A stretch of DNA of 38,200 nucleotides from an uncultured Sphingomonas sp. (GTDB lineage: Bacteria > Pseudomonadota > Alphaproteobacteria > Sphingomonadales > Sphingomonadaceae). A model generated the notes under the pieces. That model did no database searches, was not told the origin of the DNA, and saw only the letters and a program-made list of their open reading frames with translations. Position 1 is the stretch's first letter, and each line of letters begins with the position of its first letter. A program made the translations under genes and the position numbers. The stretch covers positions 1-38,200 of the forward strand of contig CAJYSA010000119.1 of assembly GCA_913777325.1 (NCBI GenBank). Reading direction: 5' to 3'. Positions 8,174 through 32,672 of the stretch are shown here, piece after piece.

Positions 8174-8911
8174 TCAGGTCACGAGGCCGAGTATCCAGCC
8201 GCTGTCCGCCGCCGCCACGCGCTGTTGCCGCGCCGACATCGCGCGCAACCGCGCCGGCTCGCGCAGCACTACGCGCTGCCGCTCGCGCGATATCAGCCCG
8301 CTGTTCACCATCTGCCGGAACACGCGGTTCACGTGCACCGCGGTCAGCCCCAGGTGGTCGCCGATCTGTTCCTGCGTCAGCGGCAGGTCGAACGTCCCCG
8401 CCGTCCCACCATACACCGCCCGCGACCGCTCCTCCATCTCGAGCAGCAATGCAGCGACGCGCGCGATCGCGGCGGTGCGCCCGACGGCGGCCAGGCGGTC
8501 CATCAACGCCACCCGCTCGCGCTGGACGCTCAGGAACATCGCGGCGGCGAAGCGCGGCGATGCCGCGAACGCCGCGCCGAACGCGGCGAGCGGCACGCGA
8601 CTGACCGTCACCGCGGTCAGCGCGGTCAATGTGTCGGCGGCCTGCGCCAGGCACATGCTCGGCGTGCCCAGCATATCGCCGGGCAGGTGGAACTTCACGA
8701 TCTGCCGCTCCCCGCCCGGCAGCAGCACTGATGAGGCCACCCACCCGCTCAGCAACAGATAGATGTGGCGCGGCGGCTCGCCCTCGCGACGCAGCACCGC
8801 GTGGCGCGGCAGATCGACCGGCGCCTCGCCGAGCGCGCGAACCGCTTCAGTGTCGGCATCGGTCAGCGGGATGAATTCTTCGAAACGATGGAGTGGCAGA
8901 CGATCAAGCAC
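8174..8911 (-). CDS. Crp/Fnr family transcriptional regulator
   Basis: A 245-aa regulator with an N-terminal cyclic-nucleotide-binding-fold sensor (about 10-125; RHIYLLLSGWVASSVLLPGGERQ and FHLPGDMLG), a dimerisation helix (about 125-162) and a C-terminal winged helix with the HTH at 179-201 (LTQEQIGDHLGLTAVHVNRV). The cysteine cluster of FNR is absent, so it is not an iron-sulfur oxygen sensor; the effector is unknown. In the recognition helix the FNR residues E, S, R correspond to V, N, R, so DNA specificity may differ. Start is GTG 8911 with a weak ribosome binding site. It is divergent from the amidohydrolase gene and lies 83 nt upstream of the three-domain enzyme gene on the same strand, so either could be a target. 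Confidence 0.92.
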   Translation of the reverse strand: MLDRLPLHRFEEFIPLTDADTEAVRALGEAPVDLPRHAVLRREGEPPRHIYLLLSGWVASSVLLPGGERQIVKFHLPGDMLGTPSMCLAQAADTLTALTAVTVSRVPLAAFGAAFAASPRFAAAMFLSVQRERVALMDRLAAVGRTAAIARVAALLLEMEERSRAVYGGTAGTFDLPLTQEQIGDHLGLTAVHVNRVFRQMVNSGLISRERQRVVLREPARLRAMSARQQRVAAADSGWILGLVT

Positions 8912-8967
8912 GCAATGTTCCCGATGATGCGAATCAGTACCTTAGCCGCCGATCCCGCGAACAAACG

Positions 8968-8981
8968 CTGATCGAAATCAT
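8968..8981. promoter_or_regulatory. FNR/FixK-like inverted repeat between divergent genes
   Basis: CTGAT-CGAA-ATCAT matches the FNR/FixK consensus TTGAT-N4-ATCAA at 8 of 10 defined positions. It lies 57 bp upstream of the Crp/Fnr gene and about 107 bp upstream of the amidohydrolase start, a suitable place for autoregulation. The regulator's recognition helix is not canonical, which weakens the link. Confidence 0.4.
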
Positions 8982-9087
8982 GCATAAGACCACTTTCCAT
9001 CCTCATCGCCGAAATCGCGATTTCGCGCGTGACGCGTGCGTTCGATCACGGCACGATGGCCTGAGAAGACAGGGGAAAAACATCATC

Positions 9088-12472
<3,385 letters not shown>

Positions 12473-12495
<23 letters not shown>

Positions 12496-12803: not shown

Positions 12804-12877
12804 GCGGGTGTAGCTCAATGGTAGAGCAGAAGCTTCCCAAGCTTACGACGAGGGTTCGATTCCCTTCACCCGCTCCA
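12804..12877 (+). tRNA. tRNA-Gly (anticodon CCC)
   Basis: 74 nt including an encoded CCA. The acceptor stem GCGGGTG pairs with CACCCGC. The D arm is GCTC-AATGGTA-GAGC, the anticodon loop TTCCCAA gives CCC, and the T arm is GAGGG-TTCGATT-CCCTT. It closely resembles E. coli glyU. Position 27-43 at the top of the anticodon stem is G-A rather than a Watson-Crick pair, which is tolerable. Confidence 0.97.
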
Positions 12878-13090: not shown

Positions 13091-13278
13091 AGGCGATTAC
13101 CGATGACGCGGTTGCGGTTGCTGCCGCGCGGACGGGTGAGCTTTGTCGCACAGGGCGTTCCGGCATCTTGCCGGCACGGCGGCGCTGCCACCCGAACATG
13201 GTCGCCCGGGAAGCGACACGGAACCAGCGTGCGCCGATCGGGCGCGCGGCGGGGATATGTGAGGGAGGGAACATAACA

Positions 13279-16044
13279 ATGACATCGATGCGTGAGTCCG
13301 CGCGCGGCACGCCGCCGCGCTGGTTGCAGACGACCACCTGCTCCGCCGCCATGCTGGCCGCGCTGCTGGCCGCCGCCCCCGCCTGGGCCCAGACCGATCC
13401 CGCCAATCCGGCGCAGCCGTTGCCGACCGTGGACGCCGCGCCACAGGCCGAGGCGCCCGCGGTCGACGATGGCAGCGGCGACGTCGTCGTCACCGGCTAT
13501 CGCCAGAGCATCGCCTCCGCGCTCGCCGCCAAGCGCAACGACATCCGCATCACCGACGGAATCTCCGCCGAGGACATCGGCAAGTTCCCCGCCCAGAACA
13601 TCACCGAGGCGATCCAGCGCATCGCCGGCGTCCAGATGTCGAACATCAACGGGCGCGGCTCGACGATCAGCATCCGTGGCCTCGGTCCGCAATATGCGCG
13701 CACGACGATCAACGGGCAGACCTTCGCCAGCGCCGACTTCAAGGACGGCTTCCGCTACGACATCATCCAGACCGATCTGGCCAGCGCGATCCAGGTCGTG
13801 AAGTCGCCGGTCGCCGACATGGATGCCGGCGGACTGTCGGGCACGGTCAACATCGATACCGTCAAGCCGCTGGCCTATAAGGGGCCGAACTTCGTCGCGG
13901 GCGTGAAGGGTTATTATTCCGACTATCGCGGCGGCGTGACGCCGAAGATCAACGGGGCCTATATCAAGAGCTTCGCCGACGACACGATCGGGATCATGCT
14001 CGATCTCGGCTATCAGAAGCTGAAGGATCGCGGCGACTACCTGTTCATCAAGAACTGGTATCAGCCGGGCGCGGTGGCGGGTGCCGGCGACGTCCAGGTG
14101 CCGGGCAATCTGCGCTATCGCCGCATCGACCGCGATACCGAGCAGCTGATGGGCAGCGGCGCGATCCAGTGGAAGCCGACCAGCAATTTCGAGGCGCTGC
14201 TCCAGGCCGAATATTCGCGCGACCACACCACCTACGACACGCGCCAGATGGTGTTCGGTCGCTGGGCGGCGTCGGCGGTGACGGTCAACAGCAAGGCGAA
14301 CGGCGTCGCCAACAACATTTCGATCAGCAACTTCAACGTCGACAACAACGACCAGCCCGAGCTGCGCAAGCTCCAGACGCAGGCCTATACCGGCACGATC
14401 AACTGGAGCCCGGGCGACACCTTCCACGTCCACGCGGTCGGCCATTACACGCAGGGCGATGCGAAGCTCTACGAATGGGCGACGATCGACGAGGTGCGCT
14501 TCCGCAATGGCGGCACGCTCGACATCTCGAACCCGCAGAACGTGAAGTGGGACACCGCGAGCCTCGTCGACGGCTCGATCTACAACACGGGCAACCGCAC
14601 GTGGTTCGCGTTCGTCGACGGCGCGACGCACATCCAGTCGGCGCGTGACCGCGCGGCGCAGGTCGATCTGACGAAGGATATCGACGCCGCCGGCATCAAG
14701 TCGTTCGTGTTCGGCGCCAAGTTCCACCACGAAAGCTTCCAGACGCTCGCCTATCGCCACGATCGCGACGGCGACATGGACAATCTGGGTGCCTATCCCG
14801 AATATGGGTCGATCCCGGATCTGGGCTCGACCGGCGTGCTGGTGAAGAACTTCCTCGGCAACGACATGTCGATCCCGCACCAGTTCCTGTCGGTGAATGC
14901 GCCGCTGTGGCAGTCGATCCTGCGCGACAAGGGGATCAACGTTCCCGACACGCCTGACTACCCCAACACCTACCGCGTCGATCGCTACATCCCGGCCGTC
15001 TACGGCATGATGAACGTCGACGGGATGCTGTTCGGCAAGTCGGTGCGCGGCAACATCGGCGCGCGGTACGAGCATACGAAGCAGGACGTGACCGTCAGCG
15101 TGACCGACGGCACCGACAGCAGCGCGAAGCTGATCGGCACCACCCACGTCAAGCAGGATTACGGCAACTTCCTGCCCAGCGCGAGCCTGGCGCTCGACCT
15201 GACGTCGCGCTTCGTCGCGCGTTTGGCGGTGGCCAAGGTGCTGGTGCGCCCGCTGCTCAACAACCAGACGCAGATGGCCGACACCATCTTCCGCGACACC
15301 AGCAGCCTGCGCCCGAGCGTGTCGGTATCGCAGGGTGAATCACGGCTGCGTCCGCTGACCGCCAATCAGGCCGATCTCAGCTTCGAATTCTACCACGGCA
15401 ACGGCAATTCGATCACGCTGGCGGGCTTCTACAAGGCGATCAAGAACGGCACGTTCACGCAATTCTACTGCCCGTCGTCCTATGACGGCGTGACGCTGAA
15501 CGGCGTGGTCAGCGATTGCCAGTCGGCGGACGGGCGCACCGACTACAGCTTCAGCCGCAAGCTGAACGACAATAACGTCATCCATGTGAAGGGTATCGAG
15601 CTCGGCGCGTCGCAGAATTTCGACATGCTGCTGCCGGTGAAGGGCTTCGGCGTGGTCGGCAACGTCACCGTGGTGGATACCGATGCCAAGGCGCTGGGCA
15701 CCGGCTTCAACCTGCGCGACCTGTCGAAGCTGACGTGGAACCTGACGCCGTATTGGGAGAACCAGATGTTCAGCGCGCGGCTGTCGGTGAACCACCGCAG
15801 CTCGTACGTTCAGGACGCGTCGACCAGCTTCTTCGTCAACGGCGGGCTGATCCACACCGTCCGTCCGCGCACGCAGATGGACGTGGCGCTGGGCTTCACG
15901 CCCTCGCCCGCGCTCAGCTTCACCGCGGGCATCATCAACCTGAACGACACGCACGAGGACGCGTACCAGACCACGTCGGACACGTTCCAGATGACCAGCC
16001 GCACCGGCCGGACCTTCTACCTGTCCGCCTCGACGCGCTTCTGA
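13279..16044 (+). CDS. TonB-dependent receptor (Xanthomonas/Caulobacter carbohydrate type)
   Basis: A 921-aa outer-membrane transporter. Start ATG 13279 follows the GAGGGAGGGA ribosome binding site; the signal peptide ends near AWA-QTD (residue 37). A TonB-box-like DVVVTG is at 68-73, then the plug domain (EDIGKFPAQNITEAIQRIAGVQM; INGRGSTISIRGLGPQYARTTINGQ; VVKSPVADMDAGGLSGTVNI), then a long beta-barrel ending in FYLSASTRF with terminal Phe, as needed for barrel assembly. The pattern fits the TonB-Xanth-Caul group, often devoted to oligosaccharide uptake. It lies 66 nt upstream of the GH89 gene on the same strand, so it probably imports a glycan carrying alpha-linked N-acetylglucosamine; the ligand is inferred from this neighbour. 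Confidence 0.95.
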   Translation: MTSMRESARGTPPRWLQTTTCSAAMLAALLAAAPAWAQTDPANPAQPLPTVDAAPQAEAPAVDDGSGDVVVTGYRQSIASALAAKRNDIRITDGISAEDIGKFPAQNITEAIQRIAGVQMSNINGRGSTISIRGLGPQYARTTINGQTFASADFKDGFRYDIIQTDLASAIQVVKSPVADMDAGGLSGTVNIDTVKPLAYKGPNFVAGVKGYYSDYRGGVTPKINGAYIKSFADDTIGIMLDLGYQKLKDRGDYLFIKNWYQPGAVAGAGDVQVPGNLRYRRIDRDTEQLMGSGAIQWKPTSNFEALLQAEYSRDHTTYDTRQMVFGRWAASAVTVNSKANGVANNISISNFNVDNNDQPELRKLQTQAYTGTINWSPGDTFHVHAVGHYTQGDAKLYEWATIDEVRFRNGGTLDISNPQNVKWDTASLVDGSIYNTGNRTWFAFVDGATHIQSARDRAAQVDLTKDIDAAGIKSFVFGAKFHHESFQTLAYRHDRDGDMDNLGAYPEYGSIPDLGSTGVLVKNFLGNDMSIPHQFLSVNAPLWQSILRDKGINVPDTPDYPNTYRVDRYIPAVYGMMNVDGMLFGKSVRGNIGARYEHTKQDVTVSVTDGTDSSAKLIGTTHVKQDYGNFLPSASLALDLTSRFVARLAVAKVLVRPLLNNQTQMADTIFRDTSSLRPSVSVSQGESRLRPLTANQADLSFEFYHGNGNSITLAGFYKAIKNGTFTQFYCPSSYDGVTLNGVVSDCQSADGRTDYSFSRKLNDNNVIHVKGIELGASQNFDMLLPVKGFGVVGNVTVVDTDAKALGTGFNLRDLSKLTWNLTPYWENQMFSARLSVNHRSSYVQDASTSFFVNGGLIHTVRPRTQMDVALGFTPSPALSFTAGIINLNDTHEDAYQTTSDTFQMTSRTGRTFYLSASTRF

Positions 16045-16110: not shown

Positions 16111-18375
16111 ATGATGACGTTGCGAACCCCCGTCCTGATCGCCGGCCTTTTTCTATCCACCACCGCCGCCGCGCAGACCGCCGACGACGCGCGCGCCGCG
16201 CTCGCCCGGCTCGGCGTCCCCGCCGCGAAGGTTGCCGTCACCCTCACCCCCGCCTCCGACGCGCGCTATCGCGTGCGTGTCGCGCGCGACCGGGTCAGCG
16301 TCACCGCCTCCTCGCCCGTCGCCGCCGTGCGCGGCGTCACGCAGGCGTTGGGCCGGCAGGGCCGCTTCCATGCGTCGTGGGAGGGCAGCCGCGTCGGCGC
16401 GCTGACCGGCCTCGCCCCCGGCGACACCGGCTGGATCGCCTCGCCGTTCGGCTATCGCGCCTATCTCAACACCTGCACCTACGGCTATACCACGCCGTAT
16501 TGGGGCTGGCCGCGCTGGGAACGCGAGCTCGACCTGATGGCCGCGCACGGCGTCGACATGCCGCTGGCGATGGAGGGGCAGGAATATATCTGGCGCGCGC
16601 TGTGGCGCGAACAGGGGCTGAGCGAGGCGCAGGTCGGCCAGCTCTTCGCCGGCGCGCCGTTCCTGCCGTGGGAGCGGATGGGCAATATGGCGGGCTATCG
16701 CGCGCCGCTGTCGTCCAGCTGGATCGAGAAGAAGCGGGCCCTGCAAAAGCGCATCCTCGCGCGGATGCGCGCGCTGGGGATGACGCCGATCCTCCCCGCC
16801 TTCGCAGGCTATGTGCCGGAGGCGTTCGCCAAGGCGCACCCGGAGGCGCGCATCTACCGGATGCGGCAATGGGAAGGCTTCCCCGGCACCTACTGGCTCG
16901 ATCCGTCCGACCCGCTGTTCGCCAAGCTCGCCGCGCGCTTCATCAAGCTCTACACCGCCGAATATGGCGCGGGCCGCTACTATCTCGCCGACGCGTTCAA
17001 CGAGATGGTGCCGCCGATCGCCGACGACGGCAGCGACACCGCCAACGCCGCTTATGGTGACAGCACCGCCAACACCGCCGCGACGCGCGCCGCCGCGCTG
17101 CCGAAGGAGGTGCGTGACGCGCGCCTCGCCGCCTATGGCAAGCGGCTGTACGCCTCGATCGCCGATGCGCAGCCGGGCGCGACCTGGGTGATGCAGGGCT
17201 GGCTGTTCGGCGCCGACAAGGATTTCTGGACCCGCGACGCGATCGCCGCCTTCCTGCGCGACGTGCCCGATAAGCGGATGCTGATCCTCGACATCGGCAA
17301 CGATCGCTATCCCGGCATCTGGAAGCAGACCAACGGCTTCGACGGCAAGGACTGGATCTACGGCTACGTCCACAATTACGGCGGCAGCAACCCGCTGTAC
17401 GGCGCGCCGGACTTCTACCGCACCGACATCGCCGCGCTGCTCGCCGATCCGGCGCGTGGGCAGGTGCGCGGCTTCGGGATGTTCCCCGAAGGATTGCACA
17501 ACAACAGCCTCGTCTACGATTACGCCTTCGACGCCGCCTGGCCGGGCGGCGACATGGCGCTCGCCCCATGGCTGCGGCGCTATACGCAGTCGCGTTATGG
17601 CCGCACCGACCCCGCACTGGTCGCCGCGTGGCAGGACGTGATCGCGGGCGTGTACGATACCCGCTACTGGACGCCGCGCTGGTGGAACCAGCGTGCGGGC
17701 GCCTATCTGTTCTTCAAGCGCCCGGCGGGCGACGCGCCGACCTTCCCCGCCGAACCCGGTGACCGCGCGAAGGCGATCGCGGGGATCGACGCGCTGCTCG
17801 CGCTCGCGCCGCGGCATCGCGACAGCGCCTTGTTCCGCTACGATCTGGTCGATCTGGTCCGGCACGCGGCCAGCCTGTCGCTCGACGATCACGTCAAGGC
17901 GGCGGTCGCGGCGTACCAGAAGGGCGATGTCGCGTCCGGCGACCGCGAGACCGCGCGCGTGAAGCGGATCGCCCTCGCGATCGACGGGCTGATCGGCGGA
18001 CAGCAGGAAACGCTCGCAAGCTGGATCGCCGATGCGCGCGGCTATGCCGACACCCCCGCCGAGGCGCGTCGCTTCGAACAGGATGCCAAGGCGCAGGTCA
18101 CGATCTGGGGCGGCGCGGGGCACCTCGGCGATTATGCGTCGAAGGCGTGGGCCGGGCTGTACGCCGATTACTACCTGCCGCGCTGGACGATGTACCTCGC
18201 CGACGCGCGCGCCGCCGCGCTCGCCAGGCGCCCGCTCGACGATGCCGCCTTCACGAAGAAATTGCGCGCGTGGGAGGATGCGTGGGTCGCCGATGCGCGC
18301 GTCTATCGCGCCACCGCGCCGCGCGACGCGATCGGTGACGCACGCGCATTGATGACGGAGATCGCTCGCCCATGA
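16111..18375 (+). CDS. Alpha-N-acetylglucosaminidase, GH89 (NAGLU family)
   Basis: A 754-aa secreted enzyme expected to release terminal alpha-linked GlcNAc. The signal peptide ends near TTAAA-Q (residue 21); ribosome binding site AAGGA is 8 nt before ATG 16111. An N-terminal alpha/beta domain (about 25-105) precedes the barrel. Landmark segments match human NAGLU: YLNTCTYGYTTPYWGWPRWERELDLMA is laid out as in the family, ADAFNEMVPP carries E298 (human E316) and FGMFPEGLHNNS carries E460 (human E446), the two catalytic glutamates. The C-terminal all-helical domain follows from about 520. It overlaps the downstream nagX-like gene by 4 nt (ATGA), so the two are translationally coupled. In mammals the homologue degrades heparan sulfate; the bacterial substrate may be any alpha-GlcNAc-capped glycan. 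Confidence 0.95.
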   Translation: MMTLRTPVLIAGLFLSTTAAAQTADDARAALARLGVPAAKVAVTLTPASDARYRVRVARDRVSVTASSPVAAVRGVTQALGRQGRFHASWEGSRVGALTGLAPGDTGWIASPFGYRAYLNTCTYGYTTPYWGWPRWERELDLMAAHGVDMPLAMEGQEYIWRALWREQGLSEAQVGQLFAGAPFLPWERMGNMAGYRAPLSSSWIEKKRALQKRILARMRALGMTPILPAFAGYVPEAFAKAHPEARIYRMRQWEGFPGTYWLDPSDPLFAKLAARFIKLYTAEYGAGRYYLADAFNEMVPPIADDGSDTANAAYGDSTANTAATRAAALPKEVRDARLAAYGKRLYASIADAQPGATWVMQGWLFGADKDFWTRDAIAAFLRDVPDKRMLILDIGNDRYPGIWKQTNGFDGKDWIYGYVHNYGGSNPLYGAPDFYRTDIAALLADPARGQVRGFGMFPEGLHNNSLVYDYAFDAAWPGGDMALAPWLRRYTQSRYGRTDPALVAAWQDVIAGVYDTRYWTPRWWNQRAGAYLFFKRPAGDAPTFPAEPGDRAKAIAGIDALLALAPRHRDSALFRYDLVDLVRHAASLSLDDHVKAAVAAYQKGDVASGDRETARVKRIALAIDGLIGGQQETLASWIADARGYADTPAEARRFEQDAKAQVTIWGGAGHLGDYASKAWAGLYADYYLPRWTMYLADARAAALARRPLDDAAFTKKLRAWEDAWVADARVYRATAPRDAIGDARALMTEIARP

Positions 18376-19499
18376 CCAGTGTCGCCGGCAAGCCGGAACG
18401 CTTCGCCTCGCTCGACATGTTTCGCGGTGCGACGATCTTCCTGATGATCGTCGTGAACACCGCCGGCGCGGGCACGCCGTTCACGCAACTGGTCCACGCG
18501 CCCTGGATCGGCTTCACGCTCGCCGACCTCGTCTACCCGTCGTTCCTGTTCGCGGTCGGCAATGCGATGAGCTTCGCGCTGACCCGTCCGATGCCCGACG
18601 GCGTGTTCCTGCGCCGTCTGTTCAAGCGTGCCGCGCTGATCTTCCTGCTCGGCTTCCTGATGTACTGGTTTCCATTCGTCACGCACGATGCCGACGGCGG
18701 CTGGTCGGTGAAGCCGTTCGCGGAGACGCGCGTCACCGGCGTGCTGCAACGGATCGCGCTCTGCTATCTGCTCGCCGGGTTGCTCGCCCGCTATCTGTCG
18801 CCGAAATGGCTGCTGGTCGCCGCCGTGGCGCTGCTCGGCGGCTATTGGGCGGTCCTCGTCGGGTTCAGCCCGCCGGGCGAAGCGTTCGGGCGCTATCGCA
18901 ACGCCGGCACCCTCCTCGATCTGTGGCTGATCGGTCCGAACCACCTCTATCACAAGGATCACGGCTTCGATCCCGAGGGGCTGCTCGGCACGCTGCCCGC
19001 CACCGTCAACGTCATCGCGGGCTATTTGGCCGGGCTGGCAATCCAGCGTTGGGGCAAGCACGCCGCCACCGTCGCGCGGATGATGGCGATCGGCGCCGCG
19101 CTGATCCTGGCCGCGTTGCTGCTCGCACCGGTGTTTCCGATCGCCAAGAAATTGTGGACCGGCTCGTTCGTGCTGCTGACGGTCGGGCTGGACATGATCC
19201 TGCTCGGCGCGGTGATTTGGCTGGTCGAGATCAGGGGCGCACGCGTCGGCCGCGCTTTCCTCCAGATGCTCGGTCGCAATCCGCTGGCGATCTATCTCTT
19301 CTCCGAGCTGCTGGTCGTGGTGCTGCAACTGATCCACGTCCGCCGCGGTGTCGGCCTGTACGACTGGATCGGCGAGACATGGTTCCAGGCGCTCGCCCCC
19401 GGCCCGGTCGGCTCGTTGTTATGTGCTTTGGCCTATACGCTGGTGTGTTGCGCGTTCGGATGGATGCTGGACCGGCGCGGGATCATCCTGAAGGTGTGA
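18372..19499 (+). CDS. nagX: NagX-like transmembrane acyltransferase (HGSNAT/DUF5009 family)
   Basis: A 375-aa multi-pass inner-membrane protein of the COG4299/DUF5009 family, which contains bacterial NagX and human heparan-alpha-glucosaminide N-acetyltransferase. The N-terminus has the family signature SLDMFRGATIFLMIVVN, then LVHAPWIGFTLADLVYPSFLF. H42 in this segment aligns with the active-site histidine of human HGSNAT in HASWNGLTVADLVFP. About ten hydrophobic helices follow, with a conserved WLIGPNHLYHKD-like loop and GRNPLAIYLFSELL near the end. The human enzyme carries acetyl from cytosolic acetyl-CoA across the membrane to terminal glucosamine. Here the ATG overlaps the GH89 stop, GGAG is 11 nt upstream, and the products could act consecutively in the periplasm. 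The acetyltransferase activity is inferred. Confidence 0.88.
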   Translation: MTSVAGKPERFASLDMFRGATIFLMIVVNTAGAGTPFTQLVHAPWIGFTLADLVYPSFLFAVGNAMSFALTRPMPDGVFLRRLFKRAALIFLLGFLMYWFPFVTHDADGGWSVKPFAETRVTGVLQRIALCYLLAGLLARYLSPKWLLVAAVALLGGYWAVLVGFSPPGEAFGRYRNAGTLLDLWLIGPNHLYHKDHGFDPEGLLGTLPATVNVIAGYLAGLAIQRWGKHAATVARMMAIGAALILAALLLAPVFPIAKKLWTGSFVLLTVGLDMILLGAVIWLVEIRGARVGRAFLQMLGRNPLAIYLFSELLVVVLQLIHVRRGVGLYDWIGETWFQALAPGPVGSLLCALAYTLVCCAFGWMLDRRGIILKV

Positions 19500-19656: not shown

Positions 19657-22548
19657 CTACCGCTCCCGCACCGCCACCACCTTGCCCAGCCCGGACGGCT
19701 GCCCGGCCTCGGCCTGCACCACCAGCACCAGCGCATGCTCCCCCGCCCCCGCCGGCAGCGGCACCAGCAGCGGCCCCGCCGCCGGATCGGTCTTCACCGC
19801 GCGCCGTTGGCCATCGATCCACGCCTCCGCACGCCCGACCACCTCGGCAAACGCGACCACGCCGCCCCGCTCCGCCACGCGCCGACGCGGCACGAACACG
19901 GTGCGATAGGTCGACCACACCGCCGCCGGATCGCGCGATCGCTCCAGCCGCCCGGCCCGCGCGCCCAGCAGGCTGTTCATATCGTTCTTCGCATATACCT
20001 TCAGCGGATCCGGGCGCGCGGCGACGAACTCGCTGCGCTTCCACTCGGTCAATTGCGCGACCGGCCGCGTCCCGGGCAGTGCGGGCAGCGGATCCGCCTT
20101 CACGACCCGCGCCGTCACGCGTGCGCTCTTCAGCCCCGGCGCGGTCGCGGTCAGCGTCACCCGTCCCGCCCCCGCGTCGGCGCGCACCAGCGCCTGCGCC
20201 AGCCCGGAGAACAGCCGCCGCACCGGCGCGATCTCCGAATCATGATCGTTGGGGTCGCCGTTGCCCACTCCGATCACCGCGCCGCCGGTCACCGCGAACG
20301 ACACGCGTGCATCTGCCCCCGGCACCACGCGCCCGCGCGCATCGACCGCCATCACCGTAAACGGCTGCACGTCGGTACCCGTGCCCAGCATCGTGCGTCG
20401 ATCCGCCACCAGCCGCAGCGCCACCGGCGCGCCGGTCGTCTCCACCCGGGTCCGCGCGATCTCGCGACCGCCACGCCACGCCACCGCCTCCAGCCGCCCC
20501 GGCTGGTACGGCACCTGCCACTCGGGCATCGCCAGCCGGTCGACCGTCCGCTTCCCCAGGCTCCTGCCGTTCAGCGACAGCTCGACCGTCTCGGCGTTGG
20601 TCAGCACCATGACCCGGATCGGCTCGCCCTCGCGCCCCGGCCATGTCCAGTGCGGCGCGATCGCCAGCGCGGGCAGCGTGTCCTCCCATTGCGCGCGGCG
20701 CAGGTGAAACGCCATCTTCGCGAAGCCGCACAGGTCCATGATCCCGAACAGGCTGCTGGTGGTCGGCCATTCGAATGGCGTCGGCTCGCCATGATAGTCG
20801 AAGCCGGTCCACACGAACGTACCCGCGACGAACGGACGCGTCGCGATCTCCTTCCAGCTCGCGTGCTGTGTCAGTCCCCAGTCCGCCGCCTCGGTGTCGT
20901 ACGACGACATCTCGTGCCGCGTCAGGTCGGTCTTCCACACACCGCGCGTCATGAAGCCGCTGGTGTCCTCCGAACTGGTCATCGGCTTGTTCGGATGCGC
21001 GGCGTGGAACGGGTCGTAGCTGCGATGCTGGTAGTTGATGCCCACGACGTCGACCGCCTGCGAGACGTTCAGGGGCGTGAACATTCCGTCGTTCATCGCC
21101 GCGGTCACCGGGCGCGACGTGTCCAGGTTCTTCACCGCGCGCGCCATCCGACGCACCATTTCATATCCCTGCTCGGTCGCCTGCATCGGTTCTTCGTTGA
21201 AGACCGACCACATGATGACGCTGGGATGGTTGCGGTCGCGGCGCACCAGCCATTCGAGCTGCGCGAGATAGTCCGGGCTTGGGTTGAAATTGCGGTTCTC
21301 GTCCATGACGAGGATGCCCAGCCGGTCGCACGCGTCCAGCAGCTCTGGGGCGGGCGCGTGGTGCGAACAGCGGATCGCATTGCACCCCATCGCCTTCAGC
21401 CGCCGCGCGCGCCATTCCCACATCGCATCGGGCATCGCCACGCCGACCCCCGCATGATCCTGATGGACGCACACACCCTTCAGCTCGACATGCTCGCCGT
21501 TCAGGTGGAAGCCCGTCGCGGCGTCGAAGCGCAGCTCGCGAAAGCCGATCCGCGTCGCGCGCGTGTCGACCACCGCCCCGTCCACCAGCAATCGCGCCCC
21601 GACGCGATACAGCGTCGGCGTCTCGATCGACCAGCGGCGCGGATCGGCGACGCCGACCGCCATCCGCACCTCGCCGCGCGTCAGCGGCTCGACGGTGAAC
21701 TCCGCCATCTCGTGCCCGAGCGTGCGCCCGTCGGGGTCGAACAGCGTCGCCTCGGCGCGGACCCGCTGCGCGGTGCGCGCACTGTTACCAACCGTTACCG
21801 CGATCGGCACGGTCCAGCGATTTCCGGTTTTTTGCGGGTCCGCATGCAGTCCATCGGTGGTAATATAGGCCGAGTTGCGGACCGCCAGCGCATTATGGCG
21901 GTACAATCCGGCACCCTCGTACCACCAACCCTCCATCGCATCGGCATCGACGCGCACCGCCAGCGTGTTCAGCTCCTCTCCGAACCGCGCATAGGGGGTG
22001 ATGTCGATCAGGATCGCGGTATAGCCGCTGTAGCTGTGCGCGACCTCGATCCCGTTGAACCAGACGGTCGCGTGGGTCGCAGCGGCACCCAGCTGGATTT
22101 CCAGATACTTACCGCGCCATTCCGTGGGCAGGTGCAGCGTGCGGCGATACCAGCCGATGCCGCGCTTGCGATATCCTTGCGCGACGTTCGCCGCCGGATC
22201 GACCGGCTCTTCCATCGCCCAATCGTGCGGCAGGTCGACCTCGCGCCAGTCGCTATCGTCCCACGCCACCCCCGCCGCCCCCGACGCCACCCCGGCCTTC
22301 GCGGCATGATACGTGTCCTCATGCCCCATCGGTTGCGGCACGACGATATCGCCCTTGTGGAAAAGCCACCCATTATCAAGACGTAACAGCGAGGGATCGG
22401 CGACGAACGGCGGCTCGGGCACGATGTCGAACGGTGCCGGCGCATCGCCGCTATCCAGATACGGTGCGGCCGGCGCAGCCGCCGCCCACGTCGGGAGCGC
22501 GGGGACCGCAATGCCAGAGGCGAGCAGGGCGCGGCGGGTGACGGTCAT
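19657..22548 (-). CDS. Tat-exported GH2 family beta-galactosidase-like glycosidase
   Basis: A 963-aa enzyme starting at ATG 22548 (GAGG about 10 nt upstream; the ORF could begin 6 codons earlier). The start exposes a twin-arginine-type signal (TVTRRALLASGIAVPA), so it is probably exported folded. Domain order: N-terminal jelly-roll (about 50-200, with HDWAMEEP and YRKRGIGWYRR), Ig-like domain (about 240-335), catalytic barrel (about 340-650) with LKGVCVHQDHAG, acid/base E452 in VFNEEP and likely nucleophile E527 in SSEDTSG, then DUF4982-like and Ig-like domains (GNGDPNDHDSE) to the end. GH2 members include beta-galactosidases, beta-glucuronidases and beta-mannosidases; the layout with DUF4982 favours beta-galactosidase. 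It is divergent from the esterase-like gene across 175 nt. Confidence 0.92.
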   Translation of the reverse strand: MTVTRRALLASGIAVPALPTWAAAAPAAPYLDSGDAPAPFDIVPEPPFVADPSLLRLDNGWLFHKGDIVVPQPMGHEDTYHAAKAGVASGAAGVAWDDSDWREVDLPHDWAMEEPVDPAANVAQGYRKRGIGWYRRTLHLPTEWRGKYLEIQLGAAATHATVWFNGIEVAHSYSGYTAILIDITPYARFGEELNTLAVRVDADAMEGWWYEGAGLYRHNALAVRNSAYITTDGLHADPQKTGNRWTVPIAVTVGNSARTAQRVRAEATLFDPDGRTLGHEMAEFTVEPLTRGEVRMAVGVADPRRWSIETPTLYRVGARLLVDGAVVDTRATRIGFRELRFDAATGFHLNGEHVELKGVCVHQDHAGVGVAMPDAMWEWRARRLKAMGCNAIRCSHHAPAPELLDACDRLGILVMDENRNFNPSPDYLAQLEWLVRRDRNHPSVIMWSVFNEEPMQATEQGYEMVRRMARAVKNLDTSRPVTAAMNDGMFTPLNVSQAVDVVGINYQHRSYDPFHAAHPNKPMTSSEDTSGFMTRGVWKTDLTRHEMSSYDTEAADWGLTQHASWKEIATRPFVAGTFVWTGFDYHGEPTPFEWPTTSSLFGIMDLCGFAKMAFHLRRAQWEDTLPALAIAPHWTWPGREGEPIRVMVLTNAETVELSLNGRSLGKRTVDRLAMPEWQVPYQPGRLEAVAWRGGREIARTRVETTGAPVALRLVADRRTMLGTGTDVQPFTVMAVDARGRVVPGADARVSFAVTGGAVIGVGNGDPNDHDSEIAPVRRLFSGLAQALVRADAGAGRVTLTATAPGLKSARVTARVVKADPLPALPGTRPVAQLTEWKRSEFVAARPDPLKVYAKNDMNSLLGARAGRLERSRDPAAVWSTYRTVFVPRRRVAERGGVVAFAEVVGRAEAWIDGQRRAVKTDPAAGPLLVPLPAGAGEHALVLVVQAEAGQPSGLGKVVAVRER

Positions 22549-22566
22549 CGGCTGATCCTCGTGCAA

Positions 22567-26683: not shown

Positions 26684-27370
26684 TCAGCTCGCTTCATCGG
26701 CGCGCAACCGATAGCCGACCCCCAGCTCGTTGGCGATCACGCTGCCGATCGCGGCGGGTGCCTCCAGCTTCTGGCGCAGGTTGCGGATGACGATGCGCAG
26801 ATACTCGACCCGTGCGTCCTCTTCGCCGGTCCAGGCGGCGGCGAGGATTCTCTCATGCGTCAGCACACGTCCGATGTGACGCGCCAGCAGTGCCAGAACG
26901 TCATGCTCCTTGCGGGTCAGATGGATGTCGGCACCGCCCCGCGTGACGATACGGCGGTCGAGATCGATCATCAGCTCGCCGCGCCGGATCACACCGGCAG
27001 GCGCCGCCCCGCCGCCGCGATGACGCAGCGCGACCCGCAACCGCGCCAGCAATTCGTCCGTGTCGAACGGCTTCGTGACATAGTCGTCGGCGCCGAGATC
27101 GAGTGCGGCGACCTTCTCGGCGGTCGCCTCTCGCGCCGACACCACCAGCACCACCATCTCGCCCACCCTACGGAGCAGCGGTATCAGCGACAGTCCGTCG
27201 CGATCGGGCAAGCCCAGGTCGAGCAGCACCGCGTCACAACCCGGCGCGGCGGCGAGGGCCGCCTGAGCGTTCATCGCCTCCACCACCTGATAGCCGGCGC
27301 GATCGAGCGTGTTGTGGAGCAACCGGCGGATCGCCACGTCGTCGTCGACGATCAGCACGCGCGCGGACAT
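26684..27370 (-). CDS. kdpE: Response regulator KdpE
   Basis: A 228-aa OmpR/PhoB-family regulator. The receiver domain (1-120) has the acidic pair D9-D10-D11, phospho-acceptor D51 in LLDLGLPDRDG and the conserved K in YVTKPFDTDEL. The C-terminal winged helix contains LTRKEHDVLALLARHIGRVLTHERIL and ends VRIVIRNLRQKLE-like, VGYRL. Its start codon shares one base with the kdpD stop (27370), so the two are translationally coupled. Family knowledge: phosphorylated by KdpD under low potassium or osmotic stress, it activates the kdp operon. Here it is the last gene of that operon, so it would be autoregulated through the tandem repeat at 35532-35553. Confidence 0.95.
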   Translation of the reverse strand: MSARVLIVDDDVAIRRLLHNTLDRAGYQVVEAMNAQAALAAAPGCDAVLLDLGLPDRDGLSLIPLLRRVGEMVVLVVSAREATAEKVAALDLGADDYVTKPFDTDELLARLRVALRHRGGGAAPAGVIRRGELMIDLDRRIVTRGGADIHLTRKEHDVLALLARHIGRVLTHERILAAAWTGEEDARVEYLRIVIRNLRQKLEAPAAIGSVIANELGVGYRLRADEAS

Positions 27371-30036
27371 CAGGCAATCTCCTCAGGCGACGGTTCGCGC
27401 ACGATCAAGGCACGCGGGAAGACCAGCGTGAACGCCGCGCCGCTGCCGTCGGACCGATTACCGGCCTCTACCCCCACGCCCATCGCTTCCGCGAACGCCT
27501 TGACGATCGCGAGCCCCAGGCCGGTCCCGCCGATGGCGCGGTCGGAGCCTTCCAGGCGGCGAAACATCTCGAACACCTCCGCCTCCCGCCCCGGCGGCAG
27601 GCCCGGCCCGCGATCGAGCACCGAGAGGCACAAGCGGTCGTAGCGATGGCGCCCTTCGACCACCACCTCGCTGCCCGGCTCGCCGTAGCGCCCGGCATTG
27701 TCGAGCAGGTTGAGCAGGATGTGGTGCAGCAACTGTGGATCGACGCGCACCAGCGGCAGATCGGGCGGCACGTCGAGCCGCACCGCACGGCCATGCAGCG
27801 CACGCCGCGCATCGTGCGCGGCCCCGGCTACGGCATCCGACAGGTCGGTGGCTTCCACCGCCAACGTCAGCGCTCCCGCCTCGATCCGCGCCATGTCGAG
27901 CAGGTTGGCGACGAAGCGGTTCAACCGCTGCGCCTCGCTTTCGATCGTGCCGATCAGCTCGGGCGTAGCGCCGTGGTGAAGCTGTGCGGCGGCGGCCATC
28001 ACGGCGGTGAGCGGGGTACGCAGATCATGGCTGACCGATGAGAGCAACGCGCTGCGCAGCCGGTCGCGGGTGCGCACCGCCTCGACATCGCGAATCTCCG
28101 CCTCCAGCCGCAACCGTTCGAGGACCAGCGCGGCCTGATCGATCAGGCTGGCGAGCAGCGGCAGGCGATCGGCGCGGATCGGCTCCCCGGCGTTGGTGTC
28201 CGCGATGCCGAGCACGCCGACGCGCCGCTCTCCCGCACGCAGCGGCTGGAACAGCCATTCCGAGGCGGTGAGGGTTCCCGATCCACGCCCGGCGGAAATG
28301 CCATTGGCGAACGCCCATTGCGCCGCCGCCATGTCGACGGTGTCCAGCCGATAGTCGGCGCTGGTGGCGGCGAGCACGGCCAGCGTATCGGCCGCGGGCG
28401 TGAGCAGCAGCACTTCGACCCCGAACAACCGCCGCACATCGTCGGCGATGATCCGCGCCGCCTCCGCCGCGGTATTCACGCCACCTAGCCGGTGGAGGAA
28501 ACCGGCGAGCGTCGCGTTGGTCCGCGCGCTGGCGGCGGCCATGTCGGCCTGCGCGCGGACGCGCGAGGTGAGCTGGCTGGTCGCGGCGGCGACACCCAGC
28601 AGCACGAAGATCGACACGACATTCTCGGGATTGCTGACGCTCAGCGTGCCGGTGGGCGGCAGGAAGAAGAAATTATAGGCAAGGCTGGAGGCGATCCCGG
28701 CGAACAATCCGGTCCGCAGCCCGAACAGGCTGGCCGCCGCCATCACCGGCAGAAGATACAATAAGGCGACGTTGCCGAGATCGAGAATATGGAACAACGC
28801 GCCCGCCGCTGCGGTCACTCCCGCGACGCCCAGCAGCGTGAGCGCATAGCCGGATGGCTTCCCCCATCGACCGCGAGGGCGCGGCGCGCGGGGCAACGCG
28901 GGCGCATCGACGGGCATGACGTGCACCGCGACACCGGGCGTCGCGCGCACCAGCCGATCGACAACCGAGCCGTGGCGCAGTTCGAACCAACGCGAGCGTT
29001 TCGATTTCCCGAGCATCAATTGCGTCGCGCGCGCATCGGCCAGAAACGTGCGAATGCCCTCAACCACGCTGGTGGCGGGCACGGTGGCGACCGATGCGCC
29101 CAGTTGCGTCGCCAGCGTCATGGTGCGCGCGACGTCCGCATGTTGCGCGTCGCTGAAATGCGCGACACGCGGCGTTTCGATGAACAACGCGGTCCACGGC
29201 GCACGAAGCGCATCGGCGGCGCGCTTGGCCGCGCGCACCAGCCCGTCGGCGCCGGGAAGCTCGTTGACCGCGACCACGATCCGCTCGCCCCCCGCCCAGG
29301 TTCCACCAAGCCCGATCGCACGAACATGATCGAGCATCTGCGCATCGACCGCCTGTGCGGCGCGGCGCAAGGCCAGTTCGCGCAGCGCCGACAGGTTCGG
29401 CTTCGAAAAGAAGTGCGCCAGCGCGCGCGTCGCCTCTTGCGGCAGATAGACTTTGCCCGCTTTCAACCGCTCGATCAGCTCGTCGGGCGGAATGTCGACC
29501 ACCTCGATCTCGGCCGCTTCCAGTATATGGTCGGGCACCGTCTCGCGCACGCGCACGCGGGTAAAGCCGGCGACGACGTCGTTGAGGCTCTCGACATGCT
29601 GGATGTTGACCGTCGTGTAGACGTGGATGCCCGCCGCCAGCAGTTCCTCGACGTCCTGATAGCGTTTGGGATGGCGGCTGCCCGGCGCGTTGGTGTGCGC
29701 CAGTTCGTCGACCAGTGCGAGCCGGGGCGCGCGCGCCAGCACCGCATCGATGTCCATCTCGTGCAGCGTCCGTCCCTCATAGGGAATGGCGCGACGCGGC
29801 ACGACCTCCTGCCCGCGCACCAGCGCCTCGGTTTCGATGCGGCCGTGCGTCTCGACCACCGCGACGACCACGTCCATGCCGTCGCGCCGGCGCGCCGCGC
29901 CTTCCGACAGCATTTCAAAGGTTTTGCCGACACCGGGAGCCGCGCCGAGGAAAATCTTAAGCTGCCCGCGCCCCTCCCGCGCGGCGGCGCGCAGGAGAGC
30001 CTCGGGATCGGGACGCGGATCGTCCGGCCCGGTCAT
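27370..30036 (-). CDS. kdpD: Sensor histidine kinase KdpD
   Basis: An 888-aa inner-membrane kinase. The N-terminal KdpD domain has the Walker A motif GAAPGVGKT (31-39) and DELAHTNAPGSRHPKRYQDV; a universal-stress-protein-like domain follows (about 250-375). Four hydrophobic helices lie at about 395-500, then a GAF-like region (about 525-640), the phospho-acceptor H670 in SVSHDLRTPL, and the ATPase boxes NLLDNAGRYG, DRGPGLPPG and GTGLGLAI. It senses potassium limitation and controls KdpE phosphorylation. Its ATG overlaps the kdpC stop by 4 nt and its own stop overlaps the kdpE start by 1 nt. All catalytic motifs are intact and the length is normal for the family. Confidence 0.96.
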   Translation of the reverse strand: MTGPDDPRPDPEALLRAAAREGRGQLKIFLGAAPGVGKTFEMLSEGAARRRDGMDVVVAVVETHGRIETEALVRGQEVVPRRAIPYEGRTLHEMDIDAVLARAPRLALVDELAHTNAPGSRHPKRYQDVEELLAAGIHVYTTVNIQHVESLNDVVAGFTRVRVRETVPDHILEAAEIEVVDIPPDELIERLKAGKVYLPQEATRALAHFFSKPNLSALRELALRRAAQAVDAQMLDHVRAIGLGGTWAGGERIVVAVNELPGADGLVRAAKRAADALRAPWTALFIETPRVAHFSDAQHADVARTMTLATQLGASVATVPATSVVEGIRTFLADARATQLMLGKSKRSRWFELRHGSVVDRLVRATPGVAVHVMPVDAPALPRAPRPRGRWGKPSGYALTLLGVAGVTAAAGALFHILDLGNVALLYLLPVMAAASLFGLRTGLFAGIASSLAYNFFFLPPTGTLSVSNPENVVSIFVLLGVAAATSQLTSRVRAQADMAAASARTNATLAGFLHRLGGVNTAAEAARIIADDVRRLFGVEVLLLTPAADTLAVLAATSADYRLDTVDMAAAQWAFANGISAGRGSGTLTASEWLFQPLRAGERRVGVLGIADTNAGEPIRADRLPLLASLIDQAALVLERLRLEAEIRDVEAVRTRDRLRSALLSSVSHDLRTPLTAVMAAAAQLHHGATPELIGTIESEAQRLNRFVANLLDMARIEAGALTLAVEATDLSDAVAGAAHDARRALHGRAVRLDVPPDLPLVRVDPQLLHHILLNLLDNAGRYGEPGSEVVVEGRHRYDRLCLSVLDRGPGLPPGREAEVFEMFRRLEGSDRAIGGTGLGLAIVKAFAEAMGVGVEAGNRSDGSGAAFTLVFPRALIVREPSPEEIA

Positions 30037-30608
30037 CGCGGCGGCGCGGCGTCCAGCGCGCGGTTGAGCGCGAGCACGTTCACGCGCGCATCACCGAACC
30101 ACGGATCGTCGGTGGCGCCGGCGATCAACGCGCGCACGCGCGTCAGCGGCAGGCCGCGAACGCGCGCCACGCGCGGCGCCTGCGCCAGTGCGGCGGCGGG
30201 CGAGAGGTCGGGGTCCAGACCCGAACCACTGGCGGTGACCAGATCGGCGGGCAGCAGGCCACGGACACCGTCCGCGCGCGCGGTGGCGACGTCGGCGCGG
30301 ATGCGATCGGCCAGCGCGGCCGAGGTCGGCCCGAGGTTCGAGCCGGAGGACGCTTGCCCGTCATATCCCTTTCCGGCAGCGGACGGACGGGTGTGGAAAT
30401 AACGTGCACCGACAAACGCTTGGCCGACCACCGCCGAGCCGATCGTGCGGCCTTGCGCGTCGCGGATCAGGCTGCCGTTGGCTTGGCGGGGAAAGATCAA
30501 CTGGGCGATGCCGGTCATGGCGAGAGGATAGACCAGCCCGAGCAGGAGCGCGAACAGGATCGTCATCACGATCGTGGGGCGCAGCGCGGAAGAAATGTCG
30601 TTGTTCAT
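30033..30608 (-). CDS. kdpC: Potassium-transporting ATPase subunit KdpC
   Basis: A 191-aa subunit with one N-terminal membrane helix (about 13-35, TIVMTILFALLLGLVYPLAMTG) and a periplasmic domain. Family segments are GSAVVGQAFVGARYFHTRPSAAGKGYD, ASSGSNLGPTSAAL and ITASGSGLDPDLSP-like LVTASGSGLDPDLSPAAA, and the end has VNVLALNRALD. KdpC stabilises the KdpFABC complex and aids its high-affinity potassium uptake. It follows kdpB by 19 nt and overlaps kdpD by 4 nt (ATGA). Nothing is unusual. Confidence 0.96.
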   Translation of the reverse strand: MNNDISSALRPTIVMTILFALLLGLVYPLAMTGIAQLIFPRQANGSLIRDAQGRTIGSAVVGQAFVGARYFHTRPSAAGKGYDGQASSGSNLGPTSAALADRIRADVATARADGVRGLLPADLVTASGSGLDPDLSPAAALAQAPRVARVRGLPLTRVRALIAGATDDPWFGDARVNVLALNRALDAAPPR

Positions 30609-30627
30609 CGCAAATTCCTGAAAACGG

Positions 30628-32658
30628 TCACGCCAGACCGGCGCCGGTGACGAGGAGATCGATCAGCTTGATGCCGACGAACGGCGCCACGAGACCGCCA
30701 AGGCCGTAAATCAACAAGTTACGTGCCAGCAGCGGGCCGGCGGCCATCGGGCGGTAGGTGACGCCGCGCAGCGCCAAGGGCACGAGCAGCGGGATGATGA
30801 GCGCGTTGAAGATGATCGCGCTGAGGATCGCCGATTGCGGCGTGCCGAGATGCATGACGTTGAGCACACCCAATCCGGGATAGAGCGCGACGAACATCGC
30901 CGGAATAATTGCAAAGTATTTCGCGACGTCGTTCGCCACCGAGAAAGTCGTCAGCGCGCCGCGCGTCATCAGCAATTGCTTGCCCAGGCCAACCACCTCG
31001 ATCAGCTTGGTCGGGTCACTATCGAGATCGACCATATTACCTGCTTCGCGCGCGGCCTGGGTGCCGGTGTTCATCGCGACACCGACGTCGGCCTGCGCCA
31101 GAGCGGGGGCGTCGTTGGTGCCGTCGCCGCACATCGCGACCAGCTTGCCGCCCTGTTGCTCCTGCCGGATCAGCGCCAATTTGTCCTCGGGCGTGGCCTG
31201 CGCGAGGAAATCGTCGACCCCCGCCTCGGCGGCGATCGCGGCGGCGGTAAGCGGATTATCGCCCGTTATCATGACGGTACGGATGCCCATCGCGCGCAGT
31301 TCGCCGAAGCGTTCGCGAATGCCGGCCTTCACCACGTCCTTCAGGAAGATCGCGCCGAGCAGGCGGCCGTCCTGCGCCACCGCCAGCGGGGTGCCGCCGG
31401 CGCGGGCGATCTCGTCGGTGATCCGTCGCAGCTCGGTAGCAGCCGCGGTGGCGCCGGTAGCCCCATTCGCCCGCAAAATAGCAGCCACCGCACCCTTTTG
31501 AATGAGCTTTTCACCGATCTTTACGCCGGAAATACGCGTCTGGGCCGTAAACGGGATCACGTCCGCGCCATCCGGCAGATCGGCCGCCGCGACGCCGCGT
31601 TCGCGCGCCAGCGTGACGATCGATCGCCCCTCCGGCGTCTCATCGGCGAGGCTGGCGAGCAAGGCCGCTTCGGCCAGTTCCTCCTCGGTCGCGCCGCCGA
31701 CGGCGCGGAACTGGCTGGCCTGCCGATCGCCGATCGTGATCGTCCCGGTCTTGTCGAGCAGCAGCACGTCGACGTCGCCCGCCGCCTCGACCGCGCGGCC
31801 CGACTTGGCAAGCACGTTGAAGCGCACCAGCCGGTCCATCCCCGCGATGCCGATCGCCGACAGCAGCGCGGCGATCGTCGTCGGGATCAGCGTGATGAGC
31901 AACGCCGCGAGGATCGCGACCGGGATGCCGCCGCCCGCATAGGACGCGAAGCCGGGGATGGTGCCGACCGCGATCAGGAAGATGATCGTGAGGCCGACGA
32001 GCAGCAGCGTCAGCGCGACCTCATTGGGGGTCTTCTGCCGCTCGGCCCCCTCGACCAGCGCGATCATGCGATCGAGGAAGCCCTTGCCGGGCTCGACCGT
32101 CACCTTCACGCGGATCTCGTCGGAGATGACGCGCGTGCCCGCCGTCACCGCGGAGCGGTCGCCGCCGGCCTCGCGGATCACCGGCGCGCTCTCGCCGGTG
32201 ATCGCGGCTTCGTTGACGCTGGCGACGCCCGCGATCACTTCCCCGTCCGAGGGGATCAGGTCGCCGGTTTCGACCAGCACGACGTCGCCGATCGCGAGCT
32301 GGCTGGCGGGCACCTCGCGCCACTCCGCACCTGCCGCGTTCAGCCGCTTGGCGGTGAGTTCGGCCTTGGCGGCGCGCAGGGATGCGGCCTGCGCCTTGCC
32401 GCGCCCCTCGGCCAAGGCCTCGGCGAAGGTGCCGAACAGGACGGTCAACCACAGCCAGACGACCAGTTGCAGCTTGAACCCGGTCGCCAGATCGTCATGC
32501 CCGACCACCAGCAGCACGGTGAGCAGCGCGGCGACGGTGGCGGTGACGAACATCACCGGGTTGCGGATCAGCTCGCGCGGGTCGAGCTTGGTGAAGGAGG
32601 CCTTCACCGCCGGCCCGACGAGCGCGGCGGTGAACAGGCTGGCGGATTGCTTTGCCAT
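30628..32658 (-). CDS. kdpB: Potassium-transporting P-type ATPase subunit KdpB
   Basis: A 676-aa catalytic subunit. ATG 32658 ([16 protein letters not shown]) is the start; the frame stays open about 900 nt further upstream through kdpA but that part is shadow sequence. Motifs: actuator TGES (154-157), phosphorylation site D302 in [11 protein letters not shown] and the hinge [19 protein letters not shown], and the inter-domain ITGDNPLTA. Seven membrane helices are expected, two before the actuator domain. ATP hydrolysis here drives potassium moved through KdpA. It is 14 nt downstream of kdpA. All key residues are intact. Confidence 0.97.
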
Positions 32659-32672
32659 GACGTGTCCTGGTC

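Follow-up and report, generated by a model that had tools for sequence, protein, structure and literature searches.

Why would a bacterium carry, as two overlapping genes, relatives of the human lysosomal enzymes NAGLU and HGSNAT? The question is raised by a contig of an uncultured Sphingomonas sp. (assembly GCA_913777325.1, CAJYSA010000119.1), whose positions 1 to 38,200 we analysed and hereafter call the window. On the plus strand, a gene for a NAGLU-like alpha-N-acetylglucosaminidase of glycoside hydrolase family 89 (GH89; 16111..18375, 754 aa, PF05089/PF12972) is followed by a gene for a predicted HGSNAT/NagX-like transmembrane N-acetyltransferase (18372..19499, plus strand, 375 aa, PF07786), here called the acyltransferase. 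The two genes share four nucleotides reading ATGA (18372..18375, plus strand), a start-stop overlap that is a translational coupling signal, and the open reading frame (ORF) coordinates agree exactly with the 4-nt overlap given in a preliminary description of this DNA. Because of the enzyme families, the conserved residues and the tight co-occurrence of the two genes, we consider it fairly probable that they form an acetylate-then-cleave module for glycans with an unacetylated alpha-glucosamine at the non-reducing end.

The acyltransferase matches HGSNAT_cat (PF07786) with 39.5 bits against a Pfam cut-off of 22, and its AlphaFold (AF2) model, based on 22 aligned sequences, has a predicted local distance difference test score (pLDDT) of 90.2 and a predicted template modelling score (pTM) of 0.90. 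In a Foldseek comparison of this model with the PDB, ranks 1-15 were all human HGSNAT (TM-score by query 0.75-0.80), followed by GWT1. Residues N29, H42, D52, R120 and E202 align with human HGSNAT N286, H297, D307, R372 and E499; H42, already named as the active-site histidine in the preliminary description, thus falls on H297. Catalysis in the human enzyme relies on the dyad H297-D307, with N286 keeping the acetyl carbonyl in place and R372 and E499 as the ligands of glucosamine (PMC11199644; this and all other papers are cited from excerpts of their text). All five positions are conserved in 36/36 proteins of the main GH89-linked clade described below. Alignment and predicted fold make the membrane protein a homologue of HGSNAT in which the active site is complete; it is predicted to transfer an acetyl group from acetyl-CoA to an alpha-glucosaminide. 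The luminal domain and the first transmembrane helix of human HGSNAT are missing, the match of the 375-aa protein beginning at human residue 263. Since the luminal domain is likewise absent from HGSNAT homologues of other kingdoms (PMC11357348), it is no defining feature of the wider family.

The same fold and residues bear on the idea that the membrane protein does another job altogether, such as glycan O-acylation or amino-sugar transport. Proteins of the TmAT fold do include sugar O-acyltransferases (PMC12423673), a distant relative has been put forward as an N-acetylmuramate transporter (cited in PMC9007349), and the gene of one Sphingopyxis homologue (locus L178) neighbours a gene for N-acetylmuramic acid 6-phosphate etherase. 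Yet the model agrees with HGSNAT in fold and in all five residues of the active site and glucosamine contact, and the gene is linked to a hydrolase of N-acetyl sugars, so that we regard a different job as very unlikely.

The GH89 protein scores 396.9 bits for NAGLU and 188.2 bits for NAGLU_C, both above the Pfam cut-offs; NAGLU_N stays below its own (21.0 bits, cut-off 28.3). Its closest solved relative is human NAGLU (4xwh, 353 bits), with the C. perfringens GH89 enzyme at 200 bits. The identity of this protein and its catalytic glutamates E298 and E460, as first described, hold up: both residues can be read in the translation and align with the 4xwh residues that correspond to the catalytic E316 and E446 of human NAGLU, the conversion from chain to full-length human numbering using an offset of +23 that we worked out ourselves. 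A hydrophobic N-terminal leader was taken, on visual inspection, for a secretion signal. Family and residues together predict that the protein releases terminal alpha-linked N-acetylglucosamine (GlcNAc).

The association of the two genes is strict within the genus. GH89 is present in 31/151 genomes, and the same 31 carry an acyltransferase homologue of at least 59% identity, as opposed to 0/120 among the genus genomes lacking GH89, where the best identity is 44%. The acyltransferase gene lies directly downstream of GH89 in 31/31 genus genomes, and the family contributes one further such genome from a different genus; in this count the acyltransferase of G157 is cut by a contig end, and a second, partial and stop-bearing GH89 stretch in G254 was left out. 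The two proteins of the pair in another genome of the genus (G206) are 90% and 89% identical to those of the window. Among 38 pair loci from Sphingomonadaceae and Asticcacaulis, six of them plasmid-borne, a start codon that gives a 4-nt ATGA/GTGA overlap is available in 37, the exception being L045. HGSNAT_cat genes number 0-6 per genome (16 genomes), from which chance adjacency is estimated at about 1 in 1000 per genome; chance as an explanation is ruled out by the contrast of 31/31 with 0/120 and by recurrence of the pair in other phyla. What had been described as a translationally coupled NAGLU-HGSNAT pair is therefore conserved, and adjacent in every GH89-bearing genome of the genus examined. 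The low GH89 counts in a class sample (1/385 genomes, the window's own) and in a family sample (2/149) show that the pair is patchy.

Salvage after cleavage is the strongest rival to the acetylate-then-cleave module. According to this explanation, GH89 frees GlcNAc and perhaps also glucosamine (GlcN), while the membrane protein acts as a NagX, acetylating glucosamine that is free in the periplasm prior to its uptake. Its active-site residues are indeed identical to those of NagX-type homologues, a NagX role was proposed from fitness data in 2022 (PMC9007349), and nag genes sometimes lie beside the pair. Phylogeny argues the other way. A tree of 66 homologues (43 linked to GH89, by selection, 3 nearby and 20 unlinked) was built by a quick method, with long-branch warnings and with support from the SH-like approximate likelihood ratio test (SH-aLRT); in it, 36 GH89-linked proteins form one clade with support of 100 and zero unlinked members, apart from the homologues in nag and chitin loci. 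The tree counts L086 and L157, with gaps, as linked and leaves out Shewanella NagX and two further homologues of the window's own genome that the profile had missed (L006, L008). A GH89-linked subfamily of this kind would imply a glycoside acceptor. Salvage is further opposed by the absence of a linked-type protein from the 120 genus genomes without GH89, and GlcN release would demand that GH89 act on unacetylated glucosaminides.

The window's genome itself contains, on contig C111, a separate unlinked NagX-like homologue (38% identity) in a chitin-type locus beside a TonB-dependent receptor (TBDR) and a GH20 hexosaminidase, and this second gene also speaks against salvage. In a different genome of the same genus (L173) an unlinked homologue stands in an operon with NagB-II-like, NagA and phosphotransferase system (PTS) genes. 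Salvage proteins of the NagX type thus occur alongside the GH89-linked kind. The window's acyltransferase gene adjoins GH89, outside any nag or chitin operon. Its score for the NagX equivalog NF046061 is 133.9 against a cut-off of 480; because homologues in the nag operon (L173, 133.6) and in the chitin-type locus (L007, 151.5) fall below that cut-off too, the model is narrow. The earlier assignment of the partner as NagX-type is thus right as to family, PF07786, and has to be qualified in that most linked proteins belong to a separate GH89-linked clade, which makes a plain NagX identity less likely without dismissing it. Overall, we give salvage after cleavage a minor though real chance of being correct.

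Linked proteins outside the main clade are those of Granulicella, of Sphingobacteriaceae together with Phycisphaerae, and of one Bacteroidota metagenome-assembled genome (MAG). The linkage label changes 4 times on the tree, and as just 1 change is forced by starred branches, several independent associations may have arisen; independent recruitment is possible in Granulicella and Sphingobacteriaceae. E312 (human E587 in 635-residue numbering) was considered as a marker for membership in the linked clade: it occurs in 36/36 main-clade rows and also in 2/23 others, including the genome's own chitin-locus homologue, and is missing in 5/7 outlying linked rows, so that it is a hint only.

Two further placements concern this family. 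The Bacteroidota acyltransferase of Plebeiobacterium sediminum (L153, 8378-9517) falls within the proteobacterial linked clade, beside Asticcacaulis (SH-aLRT 96), a position suggestive of inter-phylum transfer. On the Sphingopyxis plasmid pRW412b (L178, 539-10731), a distant HGSNAT-family protein is encoded with a TBDR, a sodium:solute symporter, N-acetylmuramic acid 6-phosphate etherase, an SIS protein and NagA; this company hints that a further subfamily deals with N-acetylmuramate or amino sugars.

Beyond the genus, we surveyed GTDB genomes with a GH89 alignment, taking the best 80 of at least 565 confirmed loci as ranked by similarity to an Asticcacaulis protein, with up to 6 kb of flank fetched. 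GH89 precedes the acyltransferase in 35 of these loci, and the reverse order on the same strand is found in 8, two of them with gaps of ~816 and ~1686 nt; in 2/80 the acyltransferase is nearby on the opposite strand. No acyltransferase was found in the fetched flank of the other 35, 20 of which are from Flavobacterium and at least five of which (L124, L136, L147, L148, L159) had less than 3 kb of sequence on one side. A count of GH89/HGSNAT adjacency, as the preliminary description had proposed, therefore gives complete linkage in the genus and partnerless loci in 35/80 of the wider set. Carriers among the Proteobacteria are Caulobacter, Asticcacaulis and Phenylobacterium (Caulobacteraceae), Xanthomonas, Rhizomicrobium and a Hyphomonadaceae MAG; those in other phyla are Granulicella (Acidobacteriota), Plebeiobacterium, Pedobacter and Mucilaginibacter (Bacteroidota) and a Phycisphaerae MAG (planctomycete). 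Spacing is looser in Xanthomonas (gap of ~150 nt) and in Granulicella (~28 and ~55 nt). Among plasmid records with a GH89 match, 9/22 carry the pair, as do 9/9 of those with GH89 identity of at least 56.9%; the four inspected from the other 13 (L076, L077, L078, L081) have no adjacent partner, the L077 plasmid carrying an acyltransferase homologue ~7 kb from GH89.

Several of our observations weigh against the acetylate-then-cleave module. The active-site residues are equally kept in homologues that are unlinked or merely nearby (N29 in 20/23, the other four in 23/23), and hence do not tell whether the acceptor is a glycoside or glucosamine in free form. For the pairs of Sphingobacteriaceae and the planctomycete, no Asn aligns with N286. 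None of the 20 Flavobacterium GH89 loci has a partner in the fetched flank. In a sample of Acidobacteriaceae, the family of Granulicella, GH89 occurs in 6/60 genomes with an adjacent partner in 3/6 (two of the three partnerless genes being on contigs shorter than 10 kb), and in a sample of Sphingobacteriaceae, the family of Mucilaginibacter, it occurs in 12/61 with a same-strand partner within 2 kb in 5/12. The partnerless loci of these three groups indicate that GH89 is generally independent of the partner, which suggests that the partner is required for particular substrates and not for GH89 as such. Finally, nag genes lie in the flank of 14/45 loci with a partner and 1/35 without, a contrast that favours the module but is confounded by taxonomy, and within the genus alone they flank only 3/31 loci.

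For the acetylate-then-cleave module we infer the acceptor, the order of steps, the direction of flow and the substrate as follows. A TBDR would import the oligosaccharide as far as the periplasm. There, the amino group of its terminal glucosamine would be acetylated by the membrane protein, which would take the acetyl group from acetyl-CoA in the cytosol, pass it through its pore and use the H42-D52 dyad for the transfer. GH89, expected to require the N-acetyl group, would then free GlcNAc, to be taken up and broken down by the nag pathway of the cell.

The neighbouring genes supply candidates for these steps. Directly upstream of GH89 lies a TBDR gene (13168..16044, plus strand; TIGR01782, 577.5 bits), whose true start is probably the ATG at 13279 as judged by eye and whose product is likely the importer of the glycan; receptors of this type are present in the fetched flank of 22/31 genus loci. 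Convergent with the pair is a GH2 beta-galactosidase gene, GalA (19657..22566, minus strand; NF041462, 1057.6 bits against a cut-off of 900). GalA was considered as an obligatory third partner and rejected, being in the fetched flank of only 12/31 genus loci and present anywhere in 83/151 genomes regardless. A GH115 alpha-glucuronidase gene flanks 8/31 genus loci, and none was found among the window ORFs scanned.

As to the fate of the sugar, contig C85 of the window's genome carries consecutive nagB-II-like, nagA and PTS EIIA-HPr-EI genes, the nagA match exceeding its curated cut-off and the nagB-II-like match falling short of it. In the Xanthomonas locus L088 the order is TBDR-GalA-GH89-acyltransferase-GntR-NagP-LacI-NagB, and apart from LacI these flanking genes, namely the TBDR, GalA and the GntR-type, NagP-like and NagB-like genes, accompany the pair in 4/4 Xanthomonas loci. 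In Novosphingobium the pair adjoins NagA and NagB-II-like genes, and in Asticcacaulis a gene for a NagK-like kinase; the NagB, NagK and NagP matches at pair loci are below NCBIfam cut-offs. Tandem TGGTATT-like boxes are associated with the regulator NagQ. TGGTATT boxes occur upstream of the receptor in 8/19 regions compared with 13% of base-matched random windows, a comparison that covers 19 of the 38 pair loci, uses approximate receptor starts and has those same regions in its null. The tandem form is absent from the window. TGGTATT repeats were also seen in Novosphingobium between nag genes and the GH89 operon (L010:4485-4525) and in the Sphingopyxis nag locus (L178:571, 8537).

What glycan could such a module degrade? 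The substrate would have to carry alpha-linked unacetylated glucosamine. Plant glycosyl inositol phosphorylceramides (GIPC) fit well, given the anomeric linkages generally described for them, and several carriers of the pair have plant-related names. In tobacco and rice GIPC, hexosamine and N-acetylated hexosamine forms are attached to glucuronic acid (GlcA)-inositol (PMC9113257), and galactose may lie outside a glucose unit bearing OH, NH2 or NAc (PMC11907402). GalA and GH115 would serve the sugars on either side of the glucosamine. The linkage specificity that is required exists in the GH89 family, since the Bacteroides enzyme Bt3590 cuts GlcNAc-alpha-1,4-GlcA, with a Km of 2.19 mM and far more poorly than a methylumbelliferyl (MU) substrate (PMC8225759). 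Next among the candidates come glycosphingolipids of sphingomonads in which GlcN is attached to GlcA, and then heparan sulfate.

The sphingomonad lipids also raise the possibility that the pair trims glycosphingolipids (GSL; GlcN-GlcA-ceramide) or lipopolysaccharide of the cell's own or its neighbours' envelope and does not serve feeding on foreign material. Older literature describes a tetrasaccharide sphingomonad GSL with alpha-GlcN on GlcA. Sphingomonadaceae produce GlcA-ceramide glycolipids, and GlcA-ceramides are the only ones documented for sphingomonads in the cited excerpts (PMC13318209). The presence of the pair in just 31/151 genus genomes and on plasmids better suits an accessory feeding system, and the pair often has a TBDR and sugar hydrolases as neighbours; envelope turnover is thus improbable.

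More specifically, the acetylate-then-cleave module may dismantle GlcN-GlcA glycolipid head groups, either of plant GIPC (Gal-GlcN/GlcNAc-GlcA-inositol-P-ceramide) or of sphingomonad glycosphingolipids, a proposal that we put forward very tentatively. GalA would take off galactose, the exposed GlcN would be acetylated by the membrane protein, GH89 would take off GlcNAc, and GH115, at some loci, GlcA. Such a route would be a catabolic pathway, undescribed to our knowledge, for a sphingolipid head group that is very abundant in plants, and it would reuse the lysosomal chemistry that breaks GlcN-GlcA in heparan.

The surroundings of the block in the window deserve mention in their own right. A tRNA-Gly gene (anticodon ccc, 12804-12877) lies just upstream of the TBDR-GH89-acyltransferase block. 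tRNA genes are common insertion sites for islands; within the genus the block has a patchy distribution, and in places it is plasmid-borne. Elsewhere in the window, 8893-12495 encodes a 1200-residue protein in which a TolB/DPPIV-like beta-propeller is fused to an amidohydrolase domain, and 26684-33564 on the minus strand is a potassium-transport locus with a response regulator, a KdpD-type kinase, KdpC and a P-type ATPase, probably KdpB.

If the acetylate-then-cleave module is real, the lysosomal logic of acetylating a sugar for its degradation also occurs in bacteria, as a compact and transferable gene pair. It would provide small, tractable bacterial models for the proteins lost in Sanfilippo types B and C. 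It would also suggest that plant and soil bacteria truly feed on glycans with a terminal alpha-glucosamine that is not acetylated.

Three known systems can be compared with the pair. The bacterial GH89 enzyme Bt3590 of Bacteroides, which cuts a heparosan disaccharide, resembles the window's GH89 by description; the excerpts of its paper discuss no acetyltransferase partner, and the main text does not mention HGSNAT (PMC8225759). NagX (Shewanella SO_3504 type, NF046061) shares the PF07786 family with the window's acyltransferase and was proposed in 2022, from fitness data in five bacteria, to be a transmembrane glucosamine acetyltransferase that uses cytosolic acetyl-CoA to acetylate periplasmic glucosamine (PMC9007349). 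The suggestion in the preliminary description that the coupling would give NagX-type proteins a role is consequently not new, as that role was already published and is contained in the name of NF046061. Unlike NagX, the window's acyltransferase is linked to GH89 and not to a nag or chitin operon, and it belongs to a clade apart from the homologues in such operons. No description of a GH89-HGSNAT/NagX pair was found in the openly licensed literature, which was the literature covered. What appears to be new is the coupling of the two genes, their strict co-occurrence and the existence of a separate subfamily. The closest parallel is human lysosomal HGSNAT with NAGLU, which act on heparan sulfate and are affected in Sanfilippo C and B, respectively. 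The window's pair differs from it in the 4-nt overlap, the TBDR and GalA neighbours, the missing luminal domain and a substrate that is probably not heparan sulfate; it shares with the human pair both enzyme families and the catalytic residues, and presumably also the side of the membrane on which the glycan lies and the order of the two steps.

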